Shown one piece after another: positions 1-57,363 of a stretch of DNA of 57,363 bases. Source of the DNA: a virus; the IMG/VR virus record IMGVR_UViG_3300020420_000002, positions 1 through 57,363 of that record. One strand, given 5' to 3'. The notes beneath the pieces are model-generated. The model was not told the DNA's origin. It saw nothing but the letters and a program-made list of their open reading frames with translations, and ran no database searches. Each line of letters starts with the position of its first letter. Within the stretch, counting starts at the first letter, position 1. Position numbers and translations under genes: made by a program.

Positions 1-77
1 GAATTTCGCGTAGAAGGCGAAGAATTCAAACATTATGCGAACGAATGGTGGAAAAAAGTAGATCAATATTACAAACA
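1..77. repeat. Terminal direct repeat, left copy
   Basis: The first 77 bases are identical to 57287-57363. A gene truncated at the right edge resumes in frame here, so the repeat closes a circle. An overlap of exactly 77 bases is what a de Bruijn assembler using k=77 leaves on a circular contig. It is therefore more likely an assembly overlap than a biological terminal repeat. Confidence 0.95.
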
Positions 78-1124: not shown

Positions 1125-1412
1125 ATGCGTAGAAATAAGAAATCCAAATTTAAACACGTCGTGATCGGTTCAAAGAAGTATTATTTTTACCGCCTCGAGT
1201 GGATCGATATAACGGGGGACGCAGGCCATGCATCAATAGAAGAATTTGATAAATTCGAATGCAGCAAAATGATAACGCATGCATACATTTACAAACGAAA
1301 TAAAAAATTCGTTTGGACATTTGCATCATATGAAGATAAAGACGTTTCATTTTCAGACCGTAATATATTTCCTGTGGGATGTATTGTTAAATTAGAGAAG
1401 ATTACTCTTTAG
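1125..1412 (+). CDS. Hypothetical basic protein, 95 aa
   Basis: A 95-residue protein I do not recognise. It starts with a Lys/Arg-rich stretch, then aromatic-rich segments suggesting a small beta-rich fold. No catalytic motif, signal peptide or membrane helix is visible. The start at 1125 follows a TATAAG hexamer by five bases and has no clear Shine-Dalgarno sequence, so leaderless translation is possible. Its 3' end overlaps the 3' end of the minus-strand terminase small subunit by 11 bases, so the two genes converge. Confidence 0.6.
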   Translation: MRRNKKSKFKHVVIGSKKYYFYRLEWIDITGDAGHASIEEFDKFECSKMITHAYIYKRNKKFVWTFASYEDKDVSFSDRNIFPVGCIVKLEKITL

Positions 1413-1881
1413 ATTCCTCGACTACTTCTGCGTTGCCATCAATGATAGGCTTGAAATTCTTCAAAGCTTTTTCTAACATTTTATCTAACTCAGACTCTTC
1501 CAGGTTATCTAAGTTTTTATGCAGATGTAGATTGGTATTATTTTGATAGCCGCCGGCCTTACCTCTGGCAACTTCAGCGTTGATAGCAGCGCTCCAGGCT
1601 TTTGATTCTCTTGCTTCATCTCTCAATTGGCCCAGTTCACCTAAGTGAGATTCCATACTAATATCGTATTTTTTTAATTTTTCACTTCTTAACCTGCCTA
1701 TGTACTGACTAACTAGAGGGTACATTGATGGGTTTTGAAGCTTACTTGCAGAGACATAGGCAGAATTAGGATCATAACCCGCTTCGATAGCACAGTCGGT
1801 AGCAGTTTTCCTACCTTCATTTGCTACTACTAAATTAGCGAACTTAACTTGTTTTTCTGTAAGTCTTTTTGGTAAACCCAT
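1402..1881 (-). CDS. terS: Terminase small subunit
   Basis: The protein is 159 residues from the ATG at 1881. An in-frame TTG at 1890 is less likely as a start. The N-terminal third matches the terminase small-subunit pattern: LTEKQ, a helix, AT.CAIEAGY and a following Ser-Ala-Ser-x-Leu-x-Asn-Pro helix, which form the DNA-binding helix-turn-helix. A central coiled region and an acidic C-terminal tail follow, the usual oligomerisation and large-subunit contact parts. It recognises the packaging start on concatemeric DNA and hands it to TerL. Unusually, it lies on the opposite strand and about 4 kb from terL (6018). The -10 of its promoter ends eight bases before the ATG, which predicts a leaderless mRNA. 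Confidence 0.85.
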   Translation of the reverse strand: MGLPKRLTEKQVKFANLVVANEGRKTATDCAIEAGYDPNSAYVSASKLQNPSMYPLVSQYIGRLRSEKLKKYDISMESHLGELGQLRDEARESKAWSAAINAEVARGKAGGYQNNTNLHLHKNLDNLEESELDKMLEKALKNFKPIIDGNAEVVEESKE

Positions 1882-1884
1882 AAC

Positions 1885-1917
1885 TTGCAATATAAATTAT
1901 TTTTGGTATATGTTCAA
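1885..1917. promoter_or_regulatory. Overlapping divergent promoters, terS and 1921 gene
   Basis: Plus strand: TTGCAA at 1885-1890, a 16-bp spacer and TATATG at 1907-1912, with the ATG at 1921. Minus strand: TTGAAC at 1917-1912, a 17-bp spacer and TATATT at 1894-1889, with the terS ATG at 1881. The two promoters occupy the same 33 bp, so polymerase cannot use both at once. Both predict almost leaderless transcripts, which fits the absence of Shine-Dalgarno sequences. The core shares ATACCAAAA with the divergent promoter at 43441-43475. Confidence 0.6.
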
Positions 1918-2793: not shown

Positions 2794-3402
2794 CTAATGT
2801 TCACCATAAGAAATATTTTTAATTTTTGGATTCCAGCATTTTCTACAGTCGAGACATTGCCCGCCCTGCTGCGGCGCTGGACATGTTGCTTTTTTAGTCA
2901 CAACAGTGGAAGTATTCGGCCAGCTTTTAATTGGTCCCTGATCAACCATTGGTGAAGAAATTCTAATTGTTAAATTCTTCGGCGCTCTTTGTAAGTGGTC
3001 CTTGATCCAAGCTTCTTTGGTTGGCATCCAATGGCGCCTTGATGGCGTCCGTTTACATACTTCAAAAATTTTATTTAAATGATCCAGGCTTTGTACATCG
3101 CCTGAGTCGTGCCATCTAAAAACATCGGGCTTTTTATTATTAATCAAAGTCGTCATTGCGTGGACCCATAACTCATGTTTAAGGGCCTTCAATCTTCTGT
3201 ATTGTGCATCTTGTACGATCTTAAAAACGTAACAACCTTTAAGAGCATAACAATTGCTACAGACGCTGCCTTCTACTTTTTGCAGCTTGCCGCCCGTGTT
3301 GCATTCTTTAGCAGGAAGGCCAATTGACCATCCAGGCATTTTGCCAGGCTTGCTTAGGCCTCCTACTATCTCCCACGCTTGAGCCGTGTTTAATTCTTTC
3401 AT
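2794..3402 (-). CDS. Gene product 88-like protein
   Basis: A 202-residue protein resembling the phage gp88 family, known from actinobacteriophages and marine phages; the biochemical role is not established. Visible features are a Cys-x2-Cys-Tyr-Ala cluster near residue 50 and a Trp-His-Asp-Ser-Gly-Asp motif near residue 98. A C-terminal set of cysteines (CPAPQQGGQCLDCRKCW) could bind a metal or an iron-sulfur cluster. The Cys pattern recalls radical SAM proteins, but a canonical Cx3Cx2C is not evident. It is read with the 40-residue gene at 3399-3521, with which it shares an ATGA overlap, from the promoter at 3625-3652. Confidence 0.7.
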   Translation of the reverse strand: MKELNTAQAWEIVGGLSKPGKMPGWSIGLPAKECNTGGKLQKVEGSVCSNCYALKGCYVFKIVQDAQYRRLKALKHELWVHAMTTLINNKKPDVFRWHDSGDVQSLDHLNKIFEVCKRTPSRRHWMPTKEAWIKDHLQRAPKNLTIRISSPMVDQGPIKSWPNTSTVVTKKATCPAPQQGGQCLDCRKCWNPKIKNISYGEH

Positions 3403-4319: not shown

Positions 4320-4910
4320 ATGCAACCATTAAGAAAAGACCACGTTGACCACTACAAAGATGTTGTGCATGAAGAGTTTAATAATGCGTCTTCATCTATT
4401 GAAAGTGAAATCCATGTTAAAGCTAGTGAGATAACAGATAAGAAATCACCTCACTTTGCAAAGGAACTTGGGTTTGATAAATTAATTTCAGAACTAGATA
4501 AGAGAGTTAAAAAACTTCTGAAATTTCAAAACGAAAAAGCCAGAATAGAGCATGACCTTGAGGTTGAAGCTAGAAAAGTAGCTGAAAAAATTGAGGACAA
4601 ATTTTCTGGTTTAAGAAGATATAGAAAATGGAGTACTGATATGAGTTCTATTAAGGTTAAAGATGAAAACCCAATAGACTATGTAACAAAAAAAATAAAA
4701 AAAGTTTGTTACGAGGAAGCAGAAAAGCATGTCAGGAAAGGTCATAAATTATATCATGCACTTGGAAATAAAAGAAAAAAGTGTTTGAATATACTTTATA
4801 CTGGAAGCCATATTCAACCAACATTAGTTGAGTTGAGTAAGGAAATGAAAACCGCTAATATTGAATTACAGATACCAAGTTCTTTATTAGCTTTACCACC
4901 GACTAAATAA
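4320..4910 (+). CDS. Hypothetical coiled-coil protein, 196 aa
   Basis: A 196-residue protein I cannot assign. Residues 45-95 are a highly charged helix with heptad-like spacing of Leu, Ile and Val, likely a coiled coil. A Lys-rich segment follows, and a Pro/Leu-rich C-terminus ends the protein. No membrane segment or enzyme motif is seen. The promoter at 4250-4278 and an AGAAAGGA ribosome binding site precede the ATG closely, marking it as an early gene with its own control. A 58-residue membrane protein gene follows after one base, so the two form an operon. Confidence 0.7.
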   Translation: MQPLRKDHVDHYKDVVHEEFNNASSSIESEIHVKASEITDKKSPHFAKELGFDKLISELDKRVKKLLKFQNEKARIEHDLEVEARKVAEKIEDKFSGLRRYRKWSTDMSSIKVKDENPIDYVTKKIKKVCYEEAEKHVRKGHKLYHALGNKRKKCLNILYTGSHIQPTLVELSKEMKTANIELQIPSSLLALPPTK

Positions 4911-4911
4911 T

Positions 4912-5088
4912 ATGGAAATATTATTATATTCTGGCATGGTTTTAATCATTGGTGGTTTTGGATTGTTTTTATATTCAGAAATAAAGTTACGAGAAATAGA
5001 TCGTAAAATGTTTTTGAATGAGCAATTACATAAATCATTCATGGAAGCAAAAAAAGAAAGTGAGGATAAACAATTAAAATTATTCTAA
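4912..5088 (+). CDS. Small single-span membrane protein
   Basis: A 58-residue protein with one hydrophobic segment (residues 3-21) of Leu, Ile, Val, Gly and Phe. A highly charged cytoplasmic-type helix rich in Glu and Lys follows. The layout fits an N-out/C-in inner-membrane peptide. It starts one base after the stop of the 196-aa gene, so co-translation is likely. The function is unknown: an early host-takeover, superinfection-exclusion or antiholin-like peptide are all possible, and nothing in the sequence decides between them. Confidence 0.65.
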   Translation: MEILLYSGMVLIIGGFGLFLYSEIKLREIDRKMFLNEQLHKSFMEAKKESEDKQLKLF

Positions 5089-5098
5089 CTTAAAACTT

Positions 5099-5123
5099 GG
5101 CGCGAGATTAACACACTCGCGCC
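5099..5123 (+). terminator. GC-rich hairpin after the 4912 gene
   Basis: A perfect 8-bp inverted repeat GGCGCGAG/CTCGCGCC around a 9-nt loop lies 10 bp after the stop codon at 5088. The following run is A-rich rather than T-rich, so it is a weak intrinsic terminator in either direction. It could instead protect the 3' end of the transcript. Confidence 0.45.
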
Positions 5124-5149
5124 ACCGAAAAAAAATTAGATAAGAGCAT

Positions 5150-5166
5150 GTGGGCGGGACCCACCC
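5150..5166 (+). repeat. GC palindrome copy 6
   Basis: GTGGGCGGGACCCACCC preceded by AGATAAGAGCAT, close to the lead of copies 5 and 7. It lies 30 bp before the DnaA box. Confidence 0.85.
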
Positions 5167-5184
5167 ATATAAAAAAACAATATG

Positions 5185-5300
5185 TTGTGGTTAAGTTATC
5201 CACAGGCACTAAAATTAATTTAAAAATAATGAATTATTTTCTTGCAAATAAAATCCTATAAATTATATTACATTTAAATTAACTTAACGAAAGGAATACA
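5185..5300. other. Candidate replication origin
   Basis: TTATCCACA at 5196-5204 is a perfect consensus DnaA box. TGTGG at 5186-5190 makes a short inverted repeat with the CCACA of the box. The next 90 bp (5211-5300) are almost pure A/T with several runs, as expected of a DNA-unwinding element. A promoter (5242-5269) reads through it. Only one perfect box is present, so the origin call is tentative; phage origins often rely on transcription rather than DnaA. Confidence 0.45.
5242..5269 (+). promoter_or_regulatory. Sigma70-like promoter
   Basis: TTGCAA at 5242-5247, a 16-bp spacer and TATATT at 5264-5269. A single TCCTA box at 5254-5258 lies ten bases before the -10. It precedes the 5302 gene and its GAAAGGA ribosome binding site. 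Confidence 0.6.
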
Positions 5301-5301
5301 A

Positions 5302-5760
5302 ATGGCTTTAATAATACACTACGAAGGTTTAAAGCACTTTAACAATGACGGCGGTTTTCTTCCAGGTGGCTTTGGAAAAAAACAAGCTGATCAAATCGGT
5401 TGGTTTATGATGTCAGCTGGCATCACGGAAATCACAGAAAAAAATATTCCAGAACTTTTATTTAGAGCAAAGTTTATGGATACTTGTTGTGGTGGAGTAC
5501 CGGTTTTTTATAACCCAAATGTTTTTGAAGAGAAGGGTACTAAAGTTTGTGACTACAAAGATGTAGCTTATAACTTTAAAAAACATTTAGGTTTAAAAAT
5601 AGAGGTAACAAATCAAGGAATAAAATTACCTGGAACTAGACATCAATTCATGGTCCAAGTTATGAGAAGCATGGAACGAGATATCTTATGGGATATAAAA
5701 GATATCGATACAGATGTTAGTTGGAAAGATCATGTAAAGGAGGAACACGTGAATAATTAG
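5302..5760 (+). CDS. Hypothetical protein, 152 aa
   Basis: A 152-residue soluble protein of unknown function. The N-terminal half has a Gly/Phe-rich loop and a Cys-Cys-Gly-Gly stretch near residue 61. The C-terminus is acidic and helical. It is an early-type gene: the promoter at 5242, the GAAAGGA ribosome binding site and the AT-rich upstream tract all match those before the genes at 133 and 4320. It is the last gene before the parS-containing gap and does not share an operon with terL, which has its own promoter. Confidence 0.7.
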   Translation: MALIIHYEGLKHFNNDGGFLPGGFGKKQADQIGWFMMSAGITEITEKNIPELLFRAKFMDTCCGGVPVFYNPNVFEEKGTKVCDYKDVAYNFKKHLGLKIEVTNQGIKLPGTRHQFMVQVMRSMERDILWDIKDIDTDVSWKDHVKEEHVNN

Positions 5761-5782
5761 TTTCGTTAAGCCATGCGGTTCT

Positions 5783-5812
5783 TGCATAGGGTATCCTACA
5801 ATATCCTATGCA
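5783..5812. repeat. Inverted repeat enclosing tandem TATCCTA
   Basis: TGCATAGG at 5783-5790 and CCTATGCA at 5805-5812 form a perfect 8-bp inverted repeat. TATCCTA occurs at 5792-5798 and 5802-5808, 10 bp apart, the second partly inside the right arm. The tandem boxes match those at the early promoters, but here no well-spaced -35 is seen. It may be an operator, or a terminator for the 5302 gene. Confidence 0.55.
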
Positions 5813-5851
5813 GAAACTGCATACCACTCTGGGTTGTGTAGAGAAGAGCAT

Positions 5852-5867
5852 GTGGGCGGGACCCACC
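5852..5867 (+). repeat. GC palindrome copy 7
   Basis: GTGGGCGGGACCCACC preceded by GTAGAGAAGAGCAT, shared exactly with copy 5. It lies 45 bp upstream of the parS site. Confidence 0.85.
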
Positions 5868-5869
5868 AC

Positions 5870-5949
5870 TAGGGGTCCCAATAGGAATTACTTTTATGTT
5901 TCACGTGAAACATTTTTTGCGATCCCCCCTTTGGCTAGTAGGGGTCCCA
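5870..5949. repeat. TAGGGGTCCCA pair flanking parS
   Basis: TAGGGGTCCCA occurs at 5870-5880 and 5939-5949. The parS palindrome sits almost midway between them. The 10-mer AGGGGTCCCA recurs at 6172-6181 inside terL. The element is itself nearly palindromic. Confidence 0.6.
5897..5912. promoter_or_regulatory. parS: parS-like centromere site
   Basis: TGTTTCACGTGAAACA is a perfect 16-bp palindrome and matches the canonical bacterial chromosomal parS consensus TGTTNCACGTGAAACA at every position. Chromosomal ParB loads at such sites and spreads. No ParA or ParB gene is recognisable in this genome, so host ParB would be the expected reader. The palindrome is followed by ATTTTTT, so a weak intrinsic terminator (6-bp stem, ACGT loop) is an alternative reading. 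Confidence 0.75.
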
Positions 5950-5966
5950 GACATACACTATAGTGT

Positions 5967-5994
5967 TTGATTTACTCAGTCATTCGGATATAAT
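5967..5994 (+). promoter_or_regulatory. Promoter for the terL/structural block
   Basis: TTGATT at 5967-5972, a 16-bp spacer and a perfect TATAAT at 5989-5994. A 12-bp perfect palindrome ACACTATAGTGT (5955-5966) abuts the -35 and could be an operator. The terL ATG lies 23 bp after the -10, and no strong ribosome binding site is seen. Confidence 0.6.
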
Positions 5995-6017
5995 ACTTTC
6001 TACCCATATTGAATTAT

Positions 6018-7493
6018 ATGCTAACAGTACAAGATATAAATAAAATTGAAGATCCTATCGAAAGAAAAAAACTAAAGATACAGATCATACAAAGACATCA
6101 AAGAAAAGAGCTCAAACAAATTCGTACCAATTTTTTGACTTTTGTAAAAAAGATGTGGCCAGATTTTATAGAGGGGTCCCACCATGAGACTATCGCAGAT
6201 AAGTTTAATAAACTTGCAACAGGAGAGCTCACTCGTTTAATTATCAATATGCCACCCAGGCATACCAAATCAGAATTTGCATCATTCTTTTTACCTGCTT
6301 GGATGATCGGGCAGAATCCAAAATTAAAAATTATTCAAGCAACTCACACAGCCGAGCTTGCAATAAACTTTGGAAGAAAAACAAAACATCTAATTGATTC
6401 TAGTGAATATCAAAATGTTTTTAAAACAAGACTCCAAGAAGATAGTAAAGCTGCAGGACGTTGGAATACTTCTGATGGCGGTGAGTATTTTGCAGTCGGT
6501 GTCCAAGGTGCGGTAACCGGTAGAGGTGCAGACTTATTAATTATAGATGATCCACATTCAGAGCAAGATGTGAGCTCACCAAATGCATTCGATAAAGCAT
6601 ACGAGTGGTATACTAGTGGACCGAGGCAAAGGCTTCAACCAGGAGGAAGAATTGTTTTGGTTATGACACGTTGGTCAACAAAAGATCTTACACAAAAATT
6701 ATTAAACGCACAGTCGAACGAGAACGGTGATCAGTGGGACGTGATTGAGTTTCCTGCGGTCTTACCTAATGGTAAACCAGTCTGGCCAGAATATTGGAAG
6801 CTCGAGGACCTCGAATCTGTTAAGGCGGCAACAGGTGTTGCAAAATGGAACGCGCAGTACATGCAGAACCCAACATCAGAAGAAGGAGCTCTAATCAAAA
6901 GAGAGTGGTGGAAAGATTGGGAACACGATCATTTACCAGTTATCGATCACATTATTCAAAGTTACGATACAGCATATCTTAAAAAAGAGACTGCCGATTA
7001 TTCTGCTATTACAACATGGGGAATTTTTCGTCCGAACGAGGACAGCGGACCTAATTTAATATTATTAGATTCGTTTAAAGATAGGTTAGAGTTTCCAGAA
7101 CTTCGTCGTGTTGCATTAGAACAATATAAATATTGGAATCCTGAAACAGTTATCATAGAAGCAAAAGCATCAGGACTTCCGTTGATGTACGAATTACGAC
7201 AGATGGGAATTCCTGCTATGAATTTTACACCATCAAAAGGTCAAGATAAAATTGCAAGAGTTAATGCAGTCTCTCCTATGTTCGAAGCCGGACAAGTGTG
7301 GGCACCTTTGAAAGAAGAGTTTGCCCAAGAGTTAGTTGAAGAGTGTGCTGCGTTTCCATATGGCGACCATGATGATTTAGTTGACTCCACGACTCAAGCT
7401 CTGTTAAGATACAGACAAGGTGGTTTAGTAAGACACCCAGAAGACTATCAAGATGAACCTGGTCCCAAACGTAAAAAGAAGTTTTATTGGTAA
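6018..7493 (+). CDS. terL: Terminase large subunit
   Basis: A 491-residue packaging motor: an N-terminal ATPase drives DNA into the procapsid and a C-terminal RNase H-like nuclease cuts concatemers. A Walker-A-like MPPRHTKSEF lies near residue 80 (the Arg-x-x-Lys-Ser form usual for terminases), and Walker B LLIIDDP near 174. In the nuclease half, the first aspartate is in QSYDTAY and the last in GDHDDLVD near the C-terminus. The length is typical of this class. ATG 6018 is chosen; an in-frame TTG at 6009 is possible. The next gene overlaps its stop by one base. Its small-subunit partner is on the other strand at 1402-1881. Confidence 0.95.
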   Translation: MLTVQDINKIEDPIERKKLKIQIIQRHQRKELKQIRTNFLTFVKKMWPDFIEGSHHETIADKFNKLATGELTRLIINMPPRHTKSEFASFFLPAWMIGQNPKLKIIQATHTAELAINFGRKTKHLIDSSEYQNVFKTRLQEDSKAAGRWNTSDGGEYFAVGVQGAVTGRGADLLIIDDPHSEQDVSSPNAFDKAYEWYTSGPRQRLQPGGRIVLVMTRWSTKDLTQKLLNAQSNENGDQWDVIEFPAVLPNGKPVWPEYWKLEDLESVKAATGVAKWNAQYMQNPTSEEGALIKREWWKDWEHDHLPVIDHIIQSYDTAYLKKETADYSAITTWGIFRPNEDSGPNLILLDSFKDRLEFPELRRVALEQYKYWNPETVIIEAKASGLPLMYELRQMGIPAMNFTPSKGQDKIARVNAVSPMFEAGQVWAPLKEEFAQELVEECAAFPYGDHDDLVDSTTQALLRYRQGGLVRHPEDYQDEPGPKRKKKFYW

Positions 7494-7675
7494 TGACATT
7501 TGTATTCAAACATCCTAGTAAATATAAGAAAAATCCAACATTGGTCAAAAACATGAAACATGTTAAACGAGACCAGATACCACCTTTAAGTGGCCCTGAT
7601 CCACGAGGCTTGATTAATGAATCAAAAGAGGATAAACCTAATCAATTGGAGAAAATAAATGGCAGAAATAGATAA
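7493..7675 (+). CDS. Small hypothetical protein between terL and portal
   Basis: A 60-residue basic protein with a Pro-rich centre and a Lys/Asn-rich end. It has no recognisable domain. The start at 7493 overlaps the terL stop by one base, and its end overlaps the portal start by 17 bases, so all three genes are translationally coupled. It may be a minor packaging or head-completion factor; this is inferred from position only. Confidence 0.6.
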   Translation: MTFVFKHPSKYKKNPTLVKNMKHVKRDQIPPLSGPDPRGLINESKEDKPNQLEKINGRNR

Positions 7676-23484: not shown

Positions 23485-23901
23485 ATGGCGACAAGCGCAA
23501 AATGGACAATAATATTTGAAGATAAAAAAATAATTAAAAATTATGATGAAGGTGCTTCAGAAGGCATTCCATATAATATATCTGACGATTCTTTTTGGAG
23601 TCAATCTAAATTTTCAAACATTTGGGCTGTTCAATATGGAACAGCTAATCCAACTGACACGGTAGAATATAGAGACGAAACCCCTCACTCCACTTGGGAA
23701 GATGCAAACTTAGGTGATATTTTAGACTTTACCACTAAATGGGACTCTTTGCATTTAGCATCTTTACAAAAACAGTGGGATGATGATGTCATAGAAGTCT
23801 GGTCAGGTGAAGGAACAGATGCTGTGTTAGAATCTACAGAAAGTGAAGCGGATCAAATTGCTAGAAAAGGTCCAAGACCTACCTCTTATTCTTCCTCTTA
23901 A
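23485..23901 (+). CDS. Tail-fibre-region protein, 138 aa
   Basis: A 138-residue acidic protein with Trp-rich segments. Similar proteins follow the collar-domain fibre in marine phages and often act as small fibre caps or chaperones. Nothing catalytic is visible. Its 3' end overlaps the 3' end of the first minus-strand oxygenase by four bases, so transcription converges here with no clear terminator. Confidence 0.65.
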   Translation: MATSAKWTIIFEDKKIIKNYDEGASEGIPYNISDDSFWSQSKFSNIWAVQYGTANPTDTVEYRDETPHSTWEDANLGDILDFTTKWDSLHLASLQKQWDDDVIEVWSGEGTDAVLESTESEADQIARKGPRPTSYSSS

Positions 23902-24470
23902 CAATTTAACCAACCTGTCATAATATATTTTTCTCCTTCAAGAGGAGGGTTACCTCTGTGCACATAAGGGTAACCAGCAGGCCAAAAAACAATTCTACCA
24001 CTTTTTGGTTTTACTCTTACTGATTGATGTAAAAATTCAGTTTCCCCACCTTCATCAACATCATTTAAATATATTGTATAAACTATTACTCGGTTTGCAT
24101 GATCTCTAGGTTCTCCATGTTCTATATGCCAAGTATGATAACCTTGTCCTGGAAGAGTTAGTTGTATTTTCAGGGGAACAATTTTAAAAGAACTATAAAA
24201 ATTTTTTAAACCTGTGTTATCTACATACCTTCTTAAAGCCAAATCAAAATTTGCAAACAGTTCTTTAAAATCATCTACCCAAGTGTCCACGGTTACTGAA
24301 GTATCGTTCTTTTCAAGAAGAGATACTTTCTCTGTTTGAAACCTTTGATATGCTTCTCCAAACGCAGCTTTTTTCTTAAAATACTCAATAACTTTATTGC
24401 AATTTGTCTTGGAGATATAATTATCAAAAATTCCTATGTGATTTTGCATGGATATCGTTTTTTCACTCAT
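23898..24470 (-). CDS. 2OG-Fe(II) oxygenase 1, prolyl-4-hydroxylase-like
   Basis: A 190-residue dioxygenase. The double-stranded beta-helix core has metal ligands His115-x-Glu117 (WHIEHGE) and His171 (YVHRG), with Lys181 in GEKYIMTGWL placed to bind 2-oxoglutarate. The lysine there and the GGETEF strand resemble prolyl 4-hydroxylases. Substituting Glu for the usual Asp in HxD is uncommon but found in active family members. It would hydroxylate an unknown substrate using O2, Fe(II) and 2OG. It is the last gene of a five-gene minus-strand operon, with a one-base overlap to the upstream gene. Confidence 0.8.
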   Translation of the reverse strand: MSEKTISMQNHIGIFDNYISKTNCNKVIEYFKKKAAFGEAYQRFQTEKVSLLEKNDTSVTVDTWVDDFKELFANFDLALRRYVDNTGLKNFYSSFKIVPLKIQLTLPGQGYHTWHIEHGEPRDHANRVIVYTIYLNDVDEGGETEFLHQSVRVKPKSGRIVFWPAGYPYVHRGNPPLEGEKYIMTGWLNC

Positions 24471-24991
24471 TAATATTCCTTACTTTTATTATCATAAGCG
24501 TAATTTTTATACGGTCCGTATTTATTTACATAATGAAAAAAAACTTGTGCTATTCCATTACCTTTATAAACTCCCGGTCTTCCATGTTGTTGGTCACAAC
24601 CTGCATATAGTAGACCATCTCCTTCTTGTAATTCAAAAACGTTATTCTCTATTATAAAAGGCCAATCGTCATATTTTTTTATACATGCACTGATTGAAAT
24701 TTCACAAGATGGTCTATCCAAATGTGTTTTTAATGTTGCTCCAAAAACATAATATCTCCAGTAAGCATATGTTGGAAGTAATTCTAATTCTGTTTCTTTT
24801 TGAATTAAATTTAATTTTAAATCTAAGAACGAAGTCATTAAAGAATCTTTGTACCATGCAGGTGAAAAAGATTGGGCATCTAATTGATATTCTTTATTAG
24901 AGTCTAATTTATTATAACAATAAGGTTGTAATATATTTAATTCTTCCTGTGAAAAAAAGTTTTTTAAGATTTTAAAATTTACTGGAGCCAT
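24470..24991 (-). CDS. 2OG-Fe(II) oxygenase 2
   Basis: A 173-residue dioxygenase-like protein: His90-x-Asp92 in LKTHLDRPSC and His136 in QQHGRPG provide the iron triad. Arg138 or a following residue may hold 2OG, but the usual Arg two strands later is not clear. The core GDGLLYAGCDQQHGR is typical of a distal His turn. The protein is short, with few extra helices, suggesting a narrow substrate pocket. It overlaps both neighbours in the operon (13 bases with the upstream gene). Confidence 0.75.
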   Translation of the reverse strand: MAPVNFKILKNFFSQEELNILQPYCYNKLDSNKEYQLDAQSFSPAWYKDSLMTSFLDLKLNLIQKETELELLPTYAYWRYYVFGATLKTHLDRPSCEISISACIKKYDDWPFIIENNVFELQEGDGLLYAGCDQQHGRPGVYKGNGIAQVFFHYVNKYGPYKNYAYDNKSKEY

Positions 24992-25527
24992 GACACTATA
25001 CTATATCGAACTCCTTTTGTTATCGGTTCTATGCAATGTGGATACATAAAATTACTTGGAAAAAAAACTATAGATCCTTTTCCAAGTTTCATTCTTTTTA
25101 CTTCTTTTTGTTGCTGATTAGTAAATACAAGATCACCACCCTCATATCCTTCATTCAAATTTATTATTACACTTAAATTTCTGACACTAGTGGTGAAGTG
25201 ATCAGTATGAACTTCATACTTACCCCCGACTGAATATTTTAATAAATCTATTTGGTTTATTTTGTTACTTTCCATCATTGGAAATTTAGCTTTGTAAAAA
25301 CTGTACAGTCTAGTTATTTCCTGTTTTACATAGTTCCAGTAAAACAAATTGGTGGGGCTGGTAAAATCTAATTGATAACCTTTTACATTTCTTGTTTCAG
25401 TATTCAATTTATCTTCTCCGATTAATAAATTTTTTGTAGCTCTTTTTTTAATTAAAGAAATAATTCTATTATTAAAATCATTTTCTATTACATTTTTGAT
25501 TTCAACAATTGCTTCTAAATAATTCAT
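24979..25527 (-). CDS. 2OG-Fe(II) oxygenase 3
   Basis: A 182-residue dioxygenase with a full canonical motif set: His107-Thr-Asp109 in YEVHTDHF, His164 in YPHCIEP, and Arg174 in KGVRYSIVSW for 2OG. The GYEGGDLVF strand lies between, and GSIVFFPSN precedes the distal His. This is close to the prolyl-hydroxylase-like group widespread in marine phages. The best-defined motifs of the cassette make this the most likely active member. It starts at ATG 25527, just after the stop of the upstream gene (25528). Confidence 0.85.
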   Translation of the reverse strand: MNYLEAIVEIKNVIENDFNNRIISLIKKRATKNLLIGEDKLNTETRNVKGYQLDFTSPTNLFYWNYVKQEITRLYSFYKAKFPMMESNKINQIDLLKYSVGGKYEVHTDHFTTSVRNLSVIINLNEGYEGGDLVFTNQQQKEVKRMKLGKGSIVFFPSNFMYPHCIEPITKGVRYSIVSWLQ

Positions 25528-26142
25528 TTATATTAATACAAAATTACTGTTCTCGACGAGTTGTAAGGTTAAATCAAAAGCTACAGTAATTCGTCTTGAG
25601 GATGTAACATCAGTGTAATGTTCAATCCACGATGGAAATATTGTTATTCTACCAGGTTTGTTTTCTGATTTAAACGCTGTATCGTCAAAAGGATTTACGT
25701 AATAAGTACCAGTTTTATTTATTTCCACACAAAGATGTCCGCTTAGAAAAGAAGTATTTTCTACCGTATGTCTATGTCTTTTTATTTGTTCTTCTTCCCT
25801 CATTACATTGGCCCAACATTTACCGTAAATTTTTTTAGGCATTGGTATTTTTAATTCTTTAAAAAATAATTTTAAATTTTCTTTGATGTTGTCTTTTAAA
25901 AAAATAGTCTCATCTGAATCAAATAAATTAAACGACATATGTCGACTAGTGAGACTTTTTTTACCTAGCCCAGTTCGACCGTCTCCCTCTGATGTTGTAT
26001 TTTTTATAATGTCTTTTTCTATATTTAAAATATGATTTTTTAATTTTTTTATGTCTATATCAGACATGTTTTCATACATAAAATATTTATAAAAAGGACT
26101 AAAAAAATTAGTAGGAGCCAAACTTTCAAACACGTGTATCAT
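25528..26142 (-). CDS. 2OG-Fe(II) oxygenase 4, TIGR02466-like
   Basis: A 204-residue protein of the divergent 2OG-Fe(II) oxygenase group seen in marine phages and bacteria. HRH (His123, His125) precedes FLSGHLCVEI, then TGTYYVNPFDD. GRITIFPSWIEH carries the distal His175, and Arg183-Arg184 precede the last strand. In this group an HxH replaces HxD. The first 100 residues are a helical domain with a basic face. It overlaps the upstream oxygenase by 17 bases. Confidence 0.75.
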   Translation of the reverse strand: MIHVFESLAPTNFFSPFYKYFMYENMSDIDIKKLKNHILNIEKDIIKNTTSEGDGRTGLGKKSLTSRHMSFNLFDSDETIFLKDNIKENLKLFFKELKIPMPKKIYGKCWANVMREEEQIKRHRHTVENTSFLSGHLCVEINKTGTYYVNPFDDTAFKSENKPGRITIFPSWIEHYTDVTSSRRITVAFDLTLQLVENSNFVLI

Positions 26143-26683
26143 CAGCGTGTCCTATTATTATATTACAAGTTACCCTTTGCCAACTATGAGTTTCTGACTC
26201 AACCGATTCACCTGTATGAAATTCTTGTGAATCTAGTATCACTGCATTTCCCGGTTTAAATTTAAATTCTTCTCCGTCTACAAAAAATGAACCTCTCCAA
26301 TCTGGTTGCCAAAGAGGAGTCATAAATAATAAAATTGTTTTTGAATGAGATGTGACCATATCATCTTGATGTAACCAGTGTTGAGTTTTTTTACCGTGGT
26401 ATGTTGCATTAAACCACATTCTTTTTAATTCTGTCGGTATACCTATTTTTTTGTCCTCTAATATTTTTGCTATTCTATAAACCAAAGTTTGGCCCCAAAG
26501 ACATAACGGATAATTGTTAACATAACCATTATTGTCTTTGACTATTAAAGCTGGCCCAGACATAAAACCCTCATGTGGTCCCGATGCGCAGTTCATTACC
26601 CAGTTATGACTACCCGTGATTTGTTTATACATATAAAACAATTCTTTTTGAGAAAGCACCTGATCTAGCATTATTGTTTTCAT
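26126..26683 (-). CDS. 2OG-Fe(II) oxygenase 5
   Basis: A 185-residue protein from the ATG at 26683; an in-frame start 28 codons earlier lacks a ribosome binding site and would overlap the divergent gene. The motifs are His105-Gln-Asp107 (HWLHQDD), His156 (QEFHTG) and Arg170 (WQRVTCNIII), the typical Fe(II) triad and 2OG Arg. GSFFVDGEEFKFKPGNAVIL is the distal strand. It is the first gene of the five-gene minus-strand cassette; its start is only 43 bp from the divergent gene at 26727, so the operon promoter must lie in or near that gene's 5' end. Confidence 0.8.
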   Translation of the reverse strand: MKTIMLDQVLSQKELFYMYKQITGSHNWVMNCASGPHEGFMSGPALIVKDNNGYVNNYPLCLWGQTLVYRIAKILEDKKIGIPTELKRMWFNATYHGKKTQHWLHQDDMVTSHSKTILLFMTPLWQPDWRGSFFVDGEEFKFKPGNAVILDSQEFHTGESVESETHSWQRVTCNIIIGHADDTRV

Positions 26684-26726
26684 TTTGTATCTTTCATTAA
26701 TTATTAAACTGCTATATAACATATTT

Positions 26727-28643
26727 ATGGCCTTAAAAAAAGTAGATTTTGCAGCTGGATTCAACAAACAAGGTGTTCCTTCAGCCCTTCCTGGAAAATG
26801 GGTGGATGGAGATTTTGTGCGTTTTAGATATACAGCACCTGAAAAAATAGGAGGTTGGTCCCAACTTACAGCTTCATCAAAAACATTACCCGGAGCAGCT
26901 AGAGCTCAAGTAGCTTTTACTAGTTTAAAAGGTGAAAAATATGCAGCTATCGGAACTTCTCAAGGTTTGTTTTTGTATTACGGAAACGATTTTTATGATA
27001 TCTCTCCTTTGGATACAGCTATTTCGGGATGCACTTTAACCACTGTCAATGGTTCCAATGTAATAACCATAGATAAATCATCTCATAATTTAAAAGTAGG
27101 AAGATATATTACTTTATCTGGAGTTACAGTAACAGGTGCTTCTGATTATACGCCCACTGAATTACAAGTGGCTTATGAAATACTAACCGTTCCAACAGTA
27201 GATAAATTTACTATACAAGCTGTAAGGAACGAAGGTGGTTCGGGAATGACGGCTGCTGGAGCTGCAACTGTTAATCCTTACGTTGAGGTTGGACCTACTA
27301 TACAAACAACAGGTTATGGTTGGAGTACATCGACTTGGGGAGCATCTACTTGGGGAACGGAAAGATCTACAAGTTCTGTGGTATTAGATCCAGGAAATTG
27401 GAGTCTTGATAATTTTGGTGAAGTGTTAGTAGCCACAGTATTTAATGGTGAAACTTTTACGTGGAATGCAGGAGCTACAAACGCTCGAACAACAAGAGCA
27501 TCTAAATCAACTTCTGGTTTTTCTACTTCGGCTAACCCAACTGCAAGCAGATTTACGTTAGTGTCTGATAGAGACAGACATTTATTTCATTTTGGAACTG
27601 AAACAACTATCGGAGACTCGACCACTCAAGACCCGATGTTTGTAAGATTTTCAAACCAAGAAGATTTAAATACTTACACCCCAACAGCTACCAACACGGC
27701 TGGAACTTTTAGACTTGACACAGGAAATAAAATTACTTCAGCTATTCAAGGGAAAGACTATGTTTTTGTTTTAACGGATCAAGCTGCTTACGTTATTCAG
27801 TTTGTTGGTCCGCCATTTACATTTAGTGTTAGACAGGTAGGTACAAACTGTGGATGTTTAGCACAACACTCCGCCTCTTATGTAAATGGTGCTATCTATT
27901 GGATGTCTAATGAAGGTGGATTTTTTATGTATGATGGTACAGTAAAAGCTTTACCTTGTTTGGTGGAAGATTTTGTTTTTACAACACAGAATGGAAATCT
28001 TGGATTAAATTTTAATGCATCAGATGTAATTTTTTCCTCACCAAATAGTTTATTTACAGAAGTAAATTGGTTTTATCCTAAATCTGGTTCTGATCAAATT
28101 GATAGGTGTGTAACTTATAATTTTCAAGAAAATGCTTGGACTACTTCATCATTAGATAGAACAACTTATCAAGATCAAGGAGTATTTAATAAACCTTATG
28201 CAACAGACTATGAATCAACAACCTCTCCCGTATTTTCAGATATTTTAGGAATTACAAACAAATACGGCGCTAGTATTTATTATGCTCACGAAGTGGGTAA
28301 TGATCAGGTTAATAGCACCGGGACAACTTCTATAAATGCTTTTATTAGATCTGGGGATTTTGATATAGATGATGGTGAATTTTTTATGTCTATGAAAAGA
28401 TTTATGCCAGACTATAAATTTTTAATTGGTAATTCTAAGGTAACATTATTTATATCTGATTTTCCTTCAGACACACAAGCAAGCTCGTCTTTAGGACCCT
28501 TTACAATAACAAAGACCACTGATAAAGTAGACACGAGAGCAAGAGCTAGACTGCTATCTATTAAAATAGAATGTGACGCTGTAGGAGAAACTTGGCGTTA
28601 TGGTAGTTTTAGACTTGATGCTCAACCAGACGGAAGGAGATAG
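26727..28643 (+). CDS. Tail/DNA-stabilisation structural protein
   Basis: A 638-residue protein from ATG 26727. The N-terminal 60 residues (KKVDFAAGFNKQGVPSALPG, DGDFVRFRY, EKIGGW) match the opening of large podovirus structural proteins related to P22 gp10-like packaged-DNA stabilisation factors. The rest has repeated beta segments with Trp/Gly turns consistent with a beta-propeller. It would plug or extend the tail after packaging. The plus-strand structural block resumes here after the oxygenase cassette. Confidence 0.7.
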   Translation: MALKKVDFAAGFNKQGVPSALPGKWVDGDFVRFRYTAPEKIGGWSQLTASSKTLPGAARAQVAFTSLKGEKYAAIGTSQGLFLYYGNDFYDISPLDTAISGCTLTTVNGSNVITIDKSSHNLKVGRYITLSGVTVTGASDYTPTELQVAYEILTVPTVDKFTIQAVRNEGGSGMTAAGAATVNPYVEVGPTIQTTGYGWSTSTWGASTWGTERSTSSVVLDPGNWSLDNFGEVLVATVFNGETFTWNAGATNARTTRASKSTSGFSTSANPTASRFTLVSDRDRHLFHFGTETTIGDSTTQDPMFVRFSNQEDLNTYTPTATNTAGTFRLDTGNKITSAIQGKDYVFVLTDQAAYVIQFVGPPFTFSVRQVGTNCGCLAQHSASYVNGAIYWMSNEGGFFMYDGTVKALPCLVEDFVFTTQNGNLGLNFNASDVIFSSPNSLFTEVNWFYPKSGSDQIDRCVTYNFQENAWTTSSLDRTTYQDQGVFNKPYATDYESTTSPVFSDILGITNKYGASIYYAHEVGNDQVNSTGTTSINAFIRSGDFDIDDGEFFMSMKRFMPDYKFLIGNSKVTLFISDFPSDTQASSSLGPFTITKTTDKVDTRARARLLSIKIECDAVGETWRYGSFRLDAQPDGRR

Positions 28644-56693: not shown

Positions 56694-57363
56694 TTAAAAT
56701 AAATAAAAAATTTTATTATCCGAGTTCGACTCGAAAAATTATAGATGGTAAAAGACATTACTTGGTGGGTGAAGAGAAGCTGCCATCGGTAACTTCTATC
56801 TTATCTGCGTGTCAGAGTGAAGAGAAGCGGGCGTCATTGGAGGCGTGGAAAAATAGAGTGGGAGAGAAAGAAGCAACACGGATCAAGGACAGTGCTGCAT
56901 CGAGAGGAACTCTTATGCATACGATTCTTGAAGGGTATATGCTAGACAAACCTATCGTTAATCTAACTCCTGAAGGTGTATTGGCCGGGAAGATGGCACA
57001 ACAGATCGTGGACCAGGGATTGAACGACAAACTAGAAGAGTTATGGGCCAGTGAGGCCGTAGTTTTTTATCCTGATATGTATGCAGGTGCAACAGATGGT
57101 GTAGGAATTTACGAGGGTAAAGAGGCCATCATAGATTTTAAACAAACAAATAAACCGAAACGAAAAGAATGGATCGAGGATTATTTTTTACAGTTGGCTG
57201 CATATGCAATTGCTCACAACCAGATCTATCAAACTAATATAAACTTTGGAATTATTCTAATGTGCAGTAAAGATAATTACTACCAAGAATTTCGCGTAGA
57301 AGGCGAAGAATTCAAACATTATGCGAACGAATGGTGGAAAAAAGTAGATCAATATTACAAACA
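56690..57363 (+). CDS. RecB-type PD-(D/E)XK exonuclease, N-terminal part
   Basis: The first 224 residues of a 231-residue protein that continues at base 1. The RecB/Cas4/MGME1-like nuclease core reads: a GTLMHTILE helix with His77 and Glu81, AGATDGVG with Asp136, AIIDFKQ with Asp149 and Lys151, and DYFLQLAAY with Gln168. These are the metal and catalytic residues of PD-(D/E)XK exonucleases. Phage enzymes of this type degrade host DNA for nucleotides or resect ends for recombination. It follows the HNH nuclease by an ATGA overlap. Confidence 0.9.
   Translation, partial: MIKINKKFYYPSSTRKIIDGKRHYLVGEEKLPSVTSILSACQSEEKRASLEAWKNRVGEKEATRIKDSAASRGTLMHTILEGYMLDKPIVNLTPEGVLAGKMAQQIVDQGLNDKLEELWASEAVVFYPDMYAGATDGVGIYEGKEAIIDFKQTNKPKRKEWIEDYFLQLAAYAIAHNQIYQTNINFGIILMCSKDNYYQEFRVEGEEFKHYANEWWKKVDQYYK
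57287..57363. repeat. Terminal direct repeat, right copy
   Basis: Identical to 1-77. It lies inside the exonuclease gene, in the same reading frame as its continuation, so removing one copy restores a circular sequence of about 57,286 bp. Confidence 0.95.

Follow-up and report, generated by a model that had tools for sequence, protein, structure and literature searches.

What does a phage gain from a chromosomal partition site when it does not seem to encode the proteins that act on it? The question is raised by IMG/VR virus record IMGVR_UViG_3300020420_000002, analysed over its whole length of 57,363 nucleotides (the window), in which positions 5897-5912 are an exact TGTTTCACGTGAAACA, matching all 16 positions of the palindrome (parS) bound by the ParB family. 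The first and last 77 bases of the window (1-77 and 57287-57363) are the same, an exact overlap that indicates a circular and probably complete genome with about 57,286 unique bases. Its large terminase subunit (TerL) shares 68% identity with the TerL of HTVC027P, a cultured phage of Pelagibacter, and 59% with that of HTVC023P. The window is an HTVC027P-related phage, probably a pelagiphage, and SAR11 is taken as the host because of this kinship.

A host-type parS in a putative pelagiphage

The site and the features around it are the following.

5897..5912, no strand assigned: parS-type palindrome TGTTTCACGTGAAACA, exact, at a position common to part of the relatives
5967..5994, plus strand: predicted sigma-70-like promoter TTGATT-16-TATAAT, a consensus match before terL
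6009..7493, plus strand: terL, terminase large subunit (phrog_38, E 1.5e-108; likely ATG at 6018)
1402..1890, minus strand: terS, terminase small subunit (phrog_51, E 5.9e-11)
5870..5880, plus strand: TAGGGGTCCCA repeat, copy 1, sequence match
5939..5949, plus strand: TAGGGGTCCCA repeat, copy 2, sequence match
5846..5867, plus strand: GAGCATGTGGGCGGGACCCACC repeat, with a further copy at 5144-5165
5196..5204, plus strand: DnaA box TTATCCACA, about 700 bp from parS
2794..3402, minus strand: gene of the GP88 family (Pfam PF17338)

The site is the only match to TGTTTCACGTGAAACA in the whole window at up to three mismatches, which bears out the original prediction of a perfect canonical parS, and the same 16-mer is given as the parS consensus in a passage of PMC10197239. 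Any match at this tolerance was found in 28 of 100 shuffled windows (mean 0.38), and the chance of an exact 16-mer in 57 kb, calculated from base composition, is about 2 in 100,000. The parS falls within the interval between terS and terL, and the predicted terL promoter begins, on its -35 side, 54 bases past the end of the site; promoter-like consensus matches numbered 12 in the scanned region, against 9.2 expected from shuffles. The TAGGGGTCCCA repeats, the DnaA box, terL and the predicted promoter that had been named as neighbours of parS are indeed all there.

Repeats of the GAGCATGTGGGCGGGACCCACC and AGGGGTCCC types lie in the window at 5144-5165, 5846-5867, 5870-5880, 5939-5949 and 6172-6180. 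Words taken from them are found upstream of terL in 34 to 35 of 35 loci picked from the window's clade (the 9-mer AGGGGTCCC in 35/35, the 8-mer CGGGACCC from the GAGCATGTGGGCGGGACCCACC repeat in 34/35) and are absent from the downstream DNA compared. The 9-mer GTTAAGTTA, which overlaps the DnaA box, is upstream of terL in 32 of these 35 loci. Actually, when k-mers upstream and downstream of terL are compared in this set, it is such other repeats that lead, and not parS. Words similar to the GAGCATGTGGGCGGGACCCACC and AGGGGTCCC repeats also adjoin parS in some loci of other phage groups.

That the window holds no parA or parB agrees with all the searches made. The ParB family PF02195 matched none of the records in two sets that both include the window (0/6 and 0/42), while it matched 11 of 14 control genomes, and the second ParB domain, PF17762, was found in 0/42 records including the window and in 9 of the 14 controls. 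Pfam comparison of 69 of the 137 window ORFs (37 + 32) at E 1e-4 gave no match to ParA, ParB or an integrase; for ParA the search covered these 69 window proteins by Pfam and, by motif, 119 parS loci of other viruses. A partition system encoded by the phage itself would have parA and parB on the same element, and such a pair was not found.

The genomes of the presumed host offer the obvious comparison. The core TTTCACGTGAAA was found in 17 of 20 SAR11 genomes (picked from 80 listed), one or two per genome, and its reversed-pattern control in none of the 20. A ParA-like ORF is located at 16 of the 17 SAR11 parS loci, and 10 of the 23 sites in these loci are identical to the exact 16-mer, the others differing at the ends. 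All 12 SAR11 genomes searched contain exactly one parB, and the closest solved relative of one SAR11 ParB is that of Caulobacter (6t1f/7bm8, E 6.6e-56), Noc scoring lower. Identity with SAR11 sites that stand beside parA indicates that the phage and its likely host have one and the same parS, a host deduced through the kinship with HTVC027P.

Conservation of the site among relatives

The window's clade was sampled as the best 80 loci with a close TerL, many of them short. The exact 16-mer is present in 32 of them, a site with at most one mismatch in 47 and with at most two in 48. Sixteen window-like loci extend 4.2 kb or more ahead of terL, and every one of them contains exactly one site within two mismatches (that of L080 has two, and some of these loci are near-duplicates), as do the window and HTVC027P. 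Seven of the 16 sites are located at -111 to -113 from terL and nine at -2.3 to -4.3 kb, so that part of the relatives have the site where the window has it. The flanks also take different forms: parS can stand beside the terL promoter, after a GTGGGCGGGACCCAC repeat past the 3' end of the GP88 gene in relatives with a remote site, or, in L046, on the other side of GP88. HTVC027P carries CGTTTCACGTGAAACA, located at a convergent gene junction. In the remote-site loci L016, L048, L055, L061, L046 and L069 the terL promoter hexamers are unchanged with parS 2-4 kb off, these hexamers being common to relatives with and without an adjoining parS. One site in differing flanks, together with the unchanged hexamers, indicates that the sequence is kept while its place shifts. 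The compact control locus that had been suggested is recognizable only in part of the clade; in other relatives parS lies 2-4 kb away at another junction.

An alignment of the flanks agrees with a site kept in changing places as far as the outer bases are concerned, which alone are informative since the rows were picked by the inner 12 bases and the alignment is circular there. The 264 contexts of the site form 168 flank clusters and, with its presence in 16/16 long relatives, this amounts to a conservation of parS beyond that of its flanks. In a quick version of a TerL tree, 14 of 15 window-clade rows have the site, and the presence label needs nine gains or losses; the label "none" there means no site within one mismatch and 5 kb upstream, and L488, L490 and L582 were so scored because their sites lie further out. 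Outside the 16 long loci, G002 (L038) has two TTTCACGTGAAA cores, at 274-285 and 58602-58613, near both ends of the record. A terminal repeat holding parS was considered for G002 and discarded, as the ends do not overlap exactly.

Among 80 HTVC027P-like loci there is no exact site, five have one within one mismatch and eight within two. Loss of the core with the stem kept, a pattern that would speak against a parS, was absent in the window's clade; in the HTVC027P-like branch, three of the eight sites within two mismatches do have a broken core. The exact site was found in one of 80 HTVC023P-like loci, in yet another flank, and the core in 3 of 16 long HTVC023P-like and HTVC027P-like records. 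No site within two mismatches is present in HTVC023P, psg01, DSL-LC04 and twelve other cultured pelagiphage records (15/15), and none within one mismatch in MinM2, CRP-901, CRP-902 and CRP-810. A general need of parS for infecting SAR11 can be rejected, given its absence from cultured pelagiphages of other groups.

parS in other phage groups

An exact-match scan found the 16-mer in at least 120 IMG/VR stretches and the reversed palindrome in one. These parS-carrying loci span 27 to 72% GC and belong to phages of several unrelated kinds. A homolog of the window TerL is present in 33 of the 119 listed loci. Of the 25 loci whose TerL is at least 52% identical, 14 have parS no more than 120 bp ahead of the terL start as extrapolated, with differing flanks; in seven of the 33 (L148, L188, L133, L162, L087, L145 and L199) there is a site downstream of terL. 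For the remaining 86 loci, 128 out of 165 candidate proteins near parS were scanned, and the commonest named families are terminase, portal and connector. However, no family exceeds five of the 128 proteins, and replication, metabolic and tail genes are found too, so that the idea of parS marking packaging genes wherever it occurs is not supported. Among the proteins near parS in these 86 loci there are three Pfam matches to the phi29-type Gp16, and near the site of L129 there is a terminase of phrog_2150, which proteins of L172 and L174 resemble.

A ParB-like ORF was detected with a SAR11 ParB profile in one of the 119 loci, which are fragments, L158 being its sole carrier. The motif KGG[VTS]GK[ST] was found in none of these 119 fragments, and PF02195 matched 0/50 parS-bearing or related records and 0/42 mostly long records. 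Three short contigs (L085, L104 and L154, 4.4-6.0 kb) share related genes and have an exact parS, and one of them matches a replication initiation protein (phrog_942). They look like microviruses, and small ssDNA phages may then share the feature.

Two groups could be studied in more depth, by gathering the relatives of L197 and L096 by TerL alone; both seeds had been picked for having parS and are included in the counts. In the L197-like set (80 loci), 60 loci have a site with at most two mismatches, and 59 of them an exact one. Of the 71 sites counted, 64 stand no more than 200 bp ahead of terL and the others farther upstream; the 390 kb that begin with terL hold none. The variant TGTTCCACGTGGAACA, which we take to be a parS sequence as well, makes up 11 of the 71 sites (at most two mismatches); in 11 loci (L608, L609 and L613-L621) this palindrome adjoins an exact parS about 75-100 bp upstream of terL. 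Of 14 L197-like loci inspected, 12 have parS, then TTGTTAACTG and then CATATT or CATAAA, and the order of parS and TTGTTAACTG holds with terS (L569) or a longer spacer (L583, L548) before terL. Furthermore, 59 of the 80 loci have CAGTTAACA ahead of terL.

In the L096-like set, 40 of 80 loci have between one and five sites each, which makes 111 in total, 102 of them exact; every site precedes terL, and the 372 kb that begin with terL are free of them. None of sixty control palindromes matched for composition has an exact copy in the two sets. Words from parS rank with the most upstream-enriched k-mers in the L197-like set and are nearly the sole strong ones in the L096-like set. Among long records of both groups, 15 of 21 have sites, all upstream of terL (-107 bp to -6.7 kb); of six further records picked for having the site, G072 and G075 have downstream ones and G086 was not placed. 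The unique exact match in the window, the counts of the site in the TerL-based samples, the difference between parS and its reversed palindrome across IMG/VR and the empty result of the control palindromes lead us to reject a chance origin of the phage parS.

Possible roles of the phage parS

Comparison shows an orphan site, maintained by selection, that has the form of the host chromosomal parS and lies near packaging genes, typically as one copy in the window's clade and as one to five in the L096-like phages, with no parA or parB found. At chromosomal parS, ParB loads, clamps and slides. Host ParB-CTP would very probably behave in the same way at the phage site, closing as a clamp and spreading onto the adjoining DNA, and an orphan loading site for host ParB is, both steps taken together, the likely nature of the locus. 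As to the consequences, our first choice, which we advance tentatively, is control of the late genes by spreading ParB. ParB lying over the start of the packaging operon would keep terL and the late genes repressed as long as the cell contains few phage genomes; replication would multiply parS and dilute the fixed ParB pool per genome until the block is lifted, the titration of ParB acting as a copy-number timer.

That the sites tend to lie where the packaging operon begins speaks for such a control in cis, which is also favoured by the 54 bp between parS and the -35 box in the window and by the arrangement of parS and TTGTTAACTG in the L197-like loci. Gene silencing through ParB spreading is not general among bacteria. 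In P. aeruginosa, ParB represses promoters adjoining parS3/parS4, according to a passage of PMC5521831. A strict coupling to the promoter is weakened by the genomes with identical terL promoter hexamers and a remote site; these, and the convergent junction in HTVC027P, indicate that tight coupling is not required. That several unrelated tailed-phage groups would use host ParB as a copy-number timer coupling packaging to replication is a wider claim, and a rather doubtful one. The remote sites in window relatives and L096-like phages, as well as the downstream ones, keep roles in partition, as a decoy and in packaging in play.

Partition or positioning would make the phage a passenger on host ParABS: host ParB on the phage parS, with ParA and possibly SMC, would place, compact or separate replicating genomes or share them between daughter cells. 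Chromosomal parS sites have this very function, for which a single copy can be enough, and the window is a circular record. The parS mimics of SGI1 are described in part of PMC10954446 as using the ParABS of the IncC plasmid for the element's own stability, and a long latent period of about 18 h is given for HTVC027P in PMC12753301. However, the latter source describes HTVC027P as obligately lytic, so the circular carrier state once proposed for the window gains nothing from it, and lytic phages reach high copy numbers and would have little need of partition. Neither does this role explain the bias towards the neighbourhood of terL in the L197-like and L096-like groups, and we consider it unlikely, if worth keeping in mind.

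More improbable is that the phage copies act as a decoy, titrating ParB off the few host parS and disturbing chromosome segregation or division. With 0-2 exact parS cores per SAR11 genome (n=20), tens of phage copies would compete strongly, and PMC10954446 describes SGI1 as making its helper plasmid unstable in this way. A decoy, however, could sit anywhere and would gain from many copies, and the window's clade typically has one, within about 4.3 kb of terL. An aid to packaging, in which ParB or ParB-loaded SMC at the start of the packaging region would mark or untangle the DNA where terminase begins, appears slightly less probable still. The sites between terS and terL or directly before terS in the window's clade and the L197-like group are consistent with it, as is the presence of as many as five sites ahead of terL in the L096-like group. 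On the other hand, phi29-type phages, which to our knowledge have no pac site, are among the parS carriers (L129 with its phrog_2150 terminase, L172 and L174 with proteins resembling it), and the terS profile matched 1 of 16 L096-like records, too few to place terS in that group.

It is quite improbable that the palindrome is the operator of another phage or host protein sharing this sequence by chance. A predicted promoter is close by, as would suit an operator, but the identical 16-mer recurs in unrelated kinds of phages over the whole GC range given above, equals the host parS and adjoins TGTTCCACGTGGAACA in 11 loci. The intrinsic terminator or RNA hairpin, raised originally on account of a T-run that does follow the site at 5913, can practically be dismissed: a terminator scan of 4900-7600 found none, so that there is no GC-rich stem followed by a T-run of the intrinsic type, Rfam gave no match at E up to 1 in 4900-6100, six T in eight on either strand occur in the representatives of 16 of 168 flank clusters only, and conservation spans the central CACGTG while substitutions at the ends, as in GGTTTCACGTGAAACA, disrupt the outer base pair.

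The preferred reading, an orphan loading site for host ParB, has parallels in known systems. Chromosomal parS sites and ParABS systems were reportedly surveyed by Livny et al. in 2007, where a mention of phages is possible; our literature search found no report of an orphan chromosomal parS in phages. The phage site shares with chromosomal parS the same consensus 16-mer, identical to SAR11 sites beside parA, but lies near packaging genes instead of the parAB region and has no parA or parB that could be found on the phage. Within the literature searched, the nearest precedent is SGI1, an integrative element parasitising a plasmid, as portrayed in part of PMC10954446. Both are mobile elements with parS copies for the ParB of another replicon, binding being presumed for the phages, and the sequence side of an SGI1-type hijack (a parS mimic matching the host sites, no parAB) seems to be present here; the target in SGI1 is a plasmid system, whereas in these tailed phages it would be that of the host chromosome. 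The phage-plasmids P1 and N15 and the cyanophage Mic1 (for Mic1, PMC7156551) also have a partition site on phage DNA but encode ParA and ParB and have their own different parS. The window is a relative of the HTVC023P-type pelagiphages (treated in PMC9599517, and HTVC027P, with its CGTTTCACGTGAAACA, in PMC12753301); parS and ParB are not mentioned in the main text of PMC9599517, nor is ParB in PMC12753301.

The presence of parS in several phage groups suggests that viruses borrow host ParB. If true, viruses would be in contact with the bacterial segregation machinery through a DNA sequence alone, and the action of the ParB CTP clamp on a genome under replication and packaging becomes a new question. 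An orphan parS near terL is a signature that can be computed, and HTVC027P growing on HTCC1062 provides a cultured test case.

A replication origin was also sought from GC skew, the profile of G105 being uninformative. Lastly, a block of five ORFs with low GC is located on the minus strand of the window at 23898-26767, and its last ORF (26126-26767) matches an endonuclease V (phrog_274).
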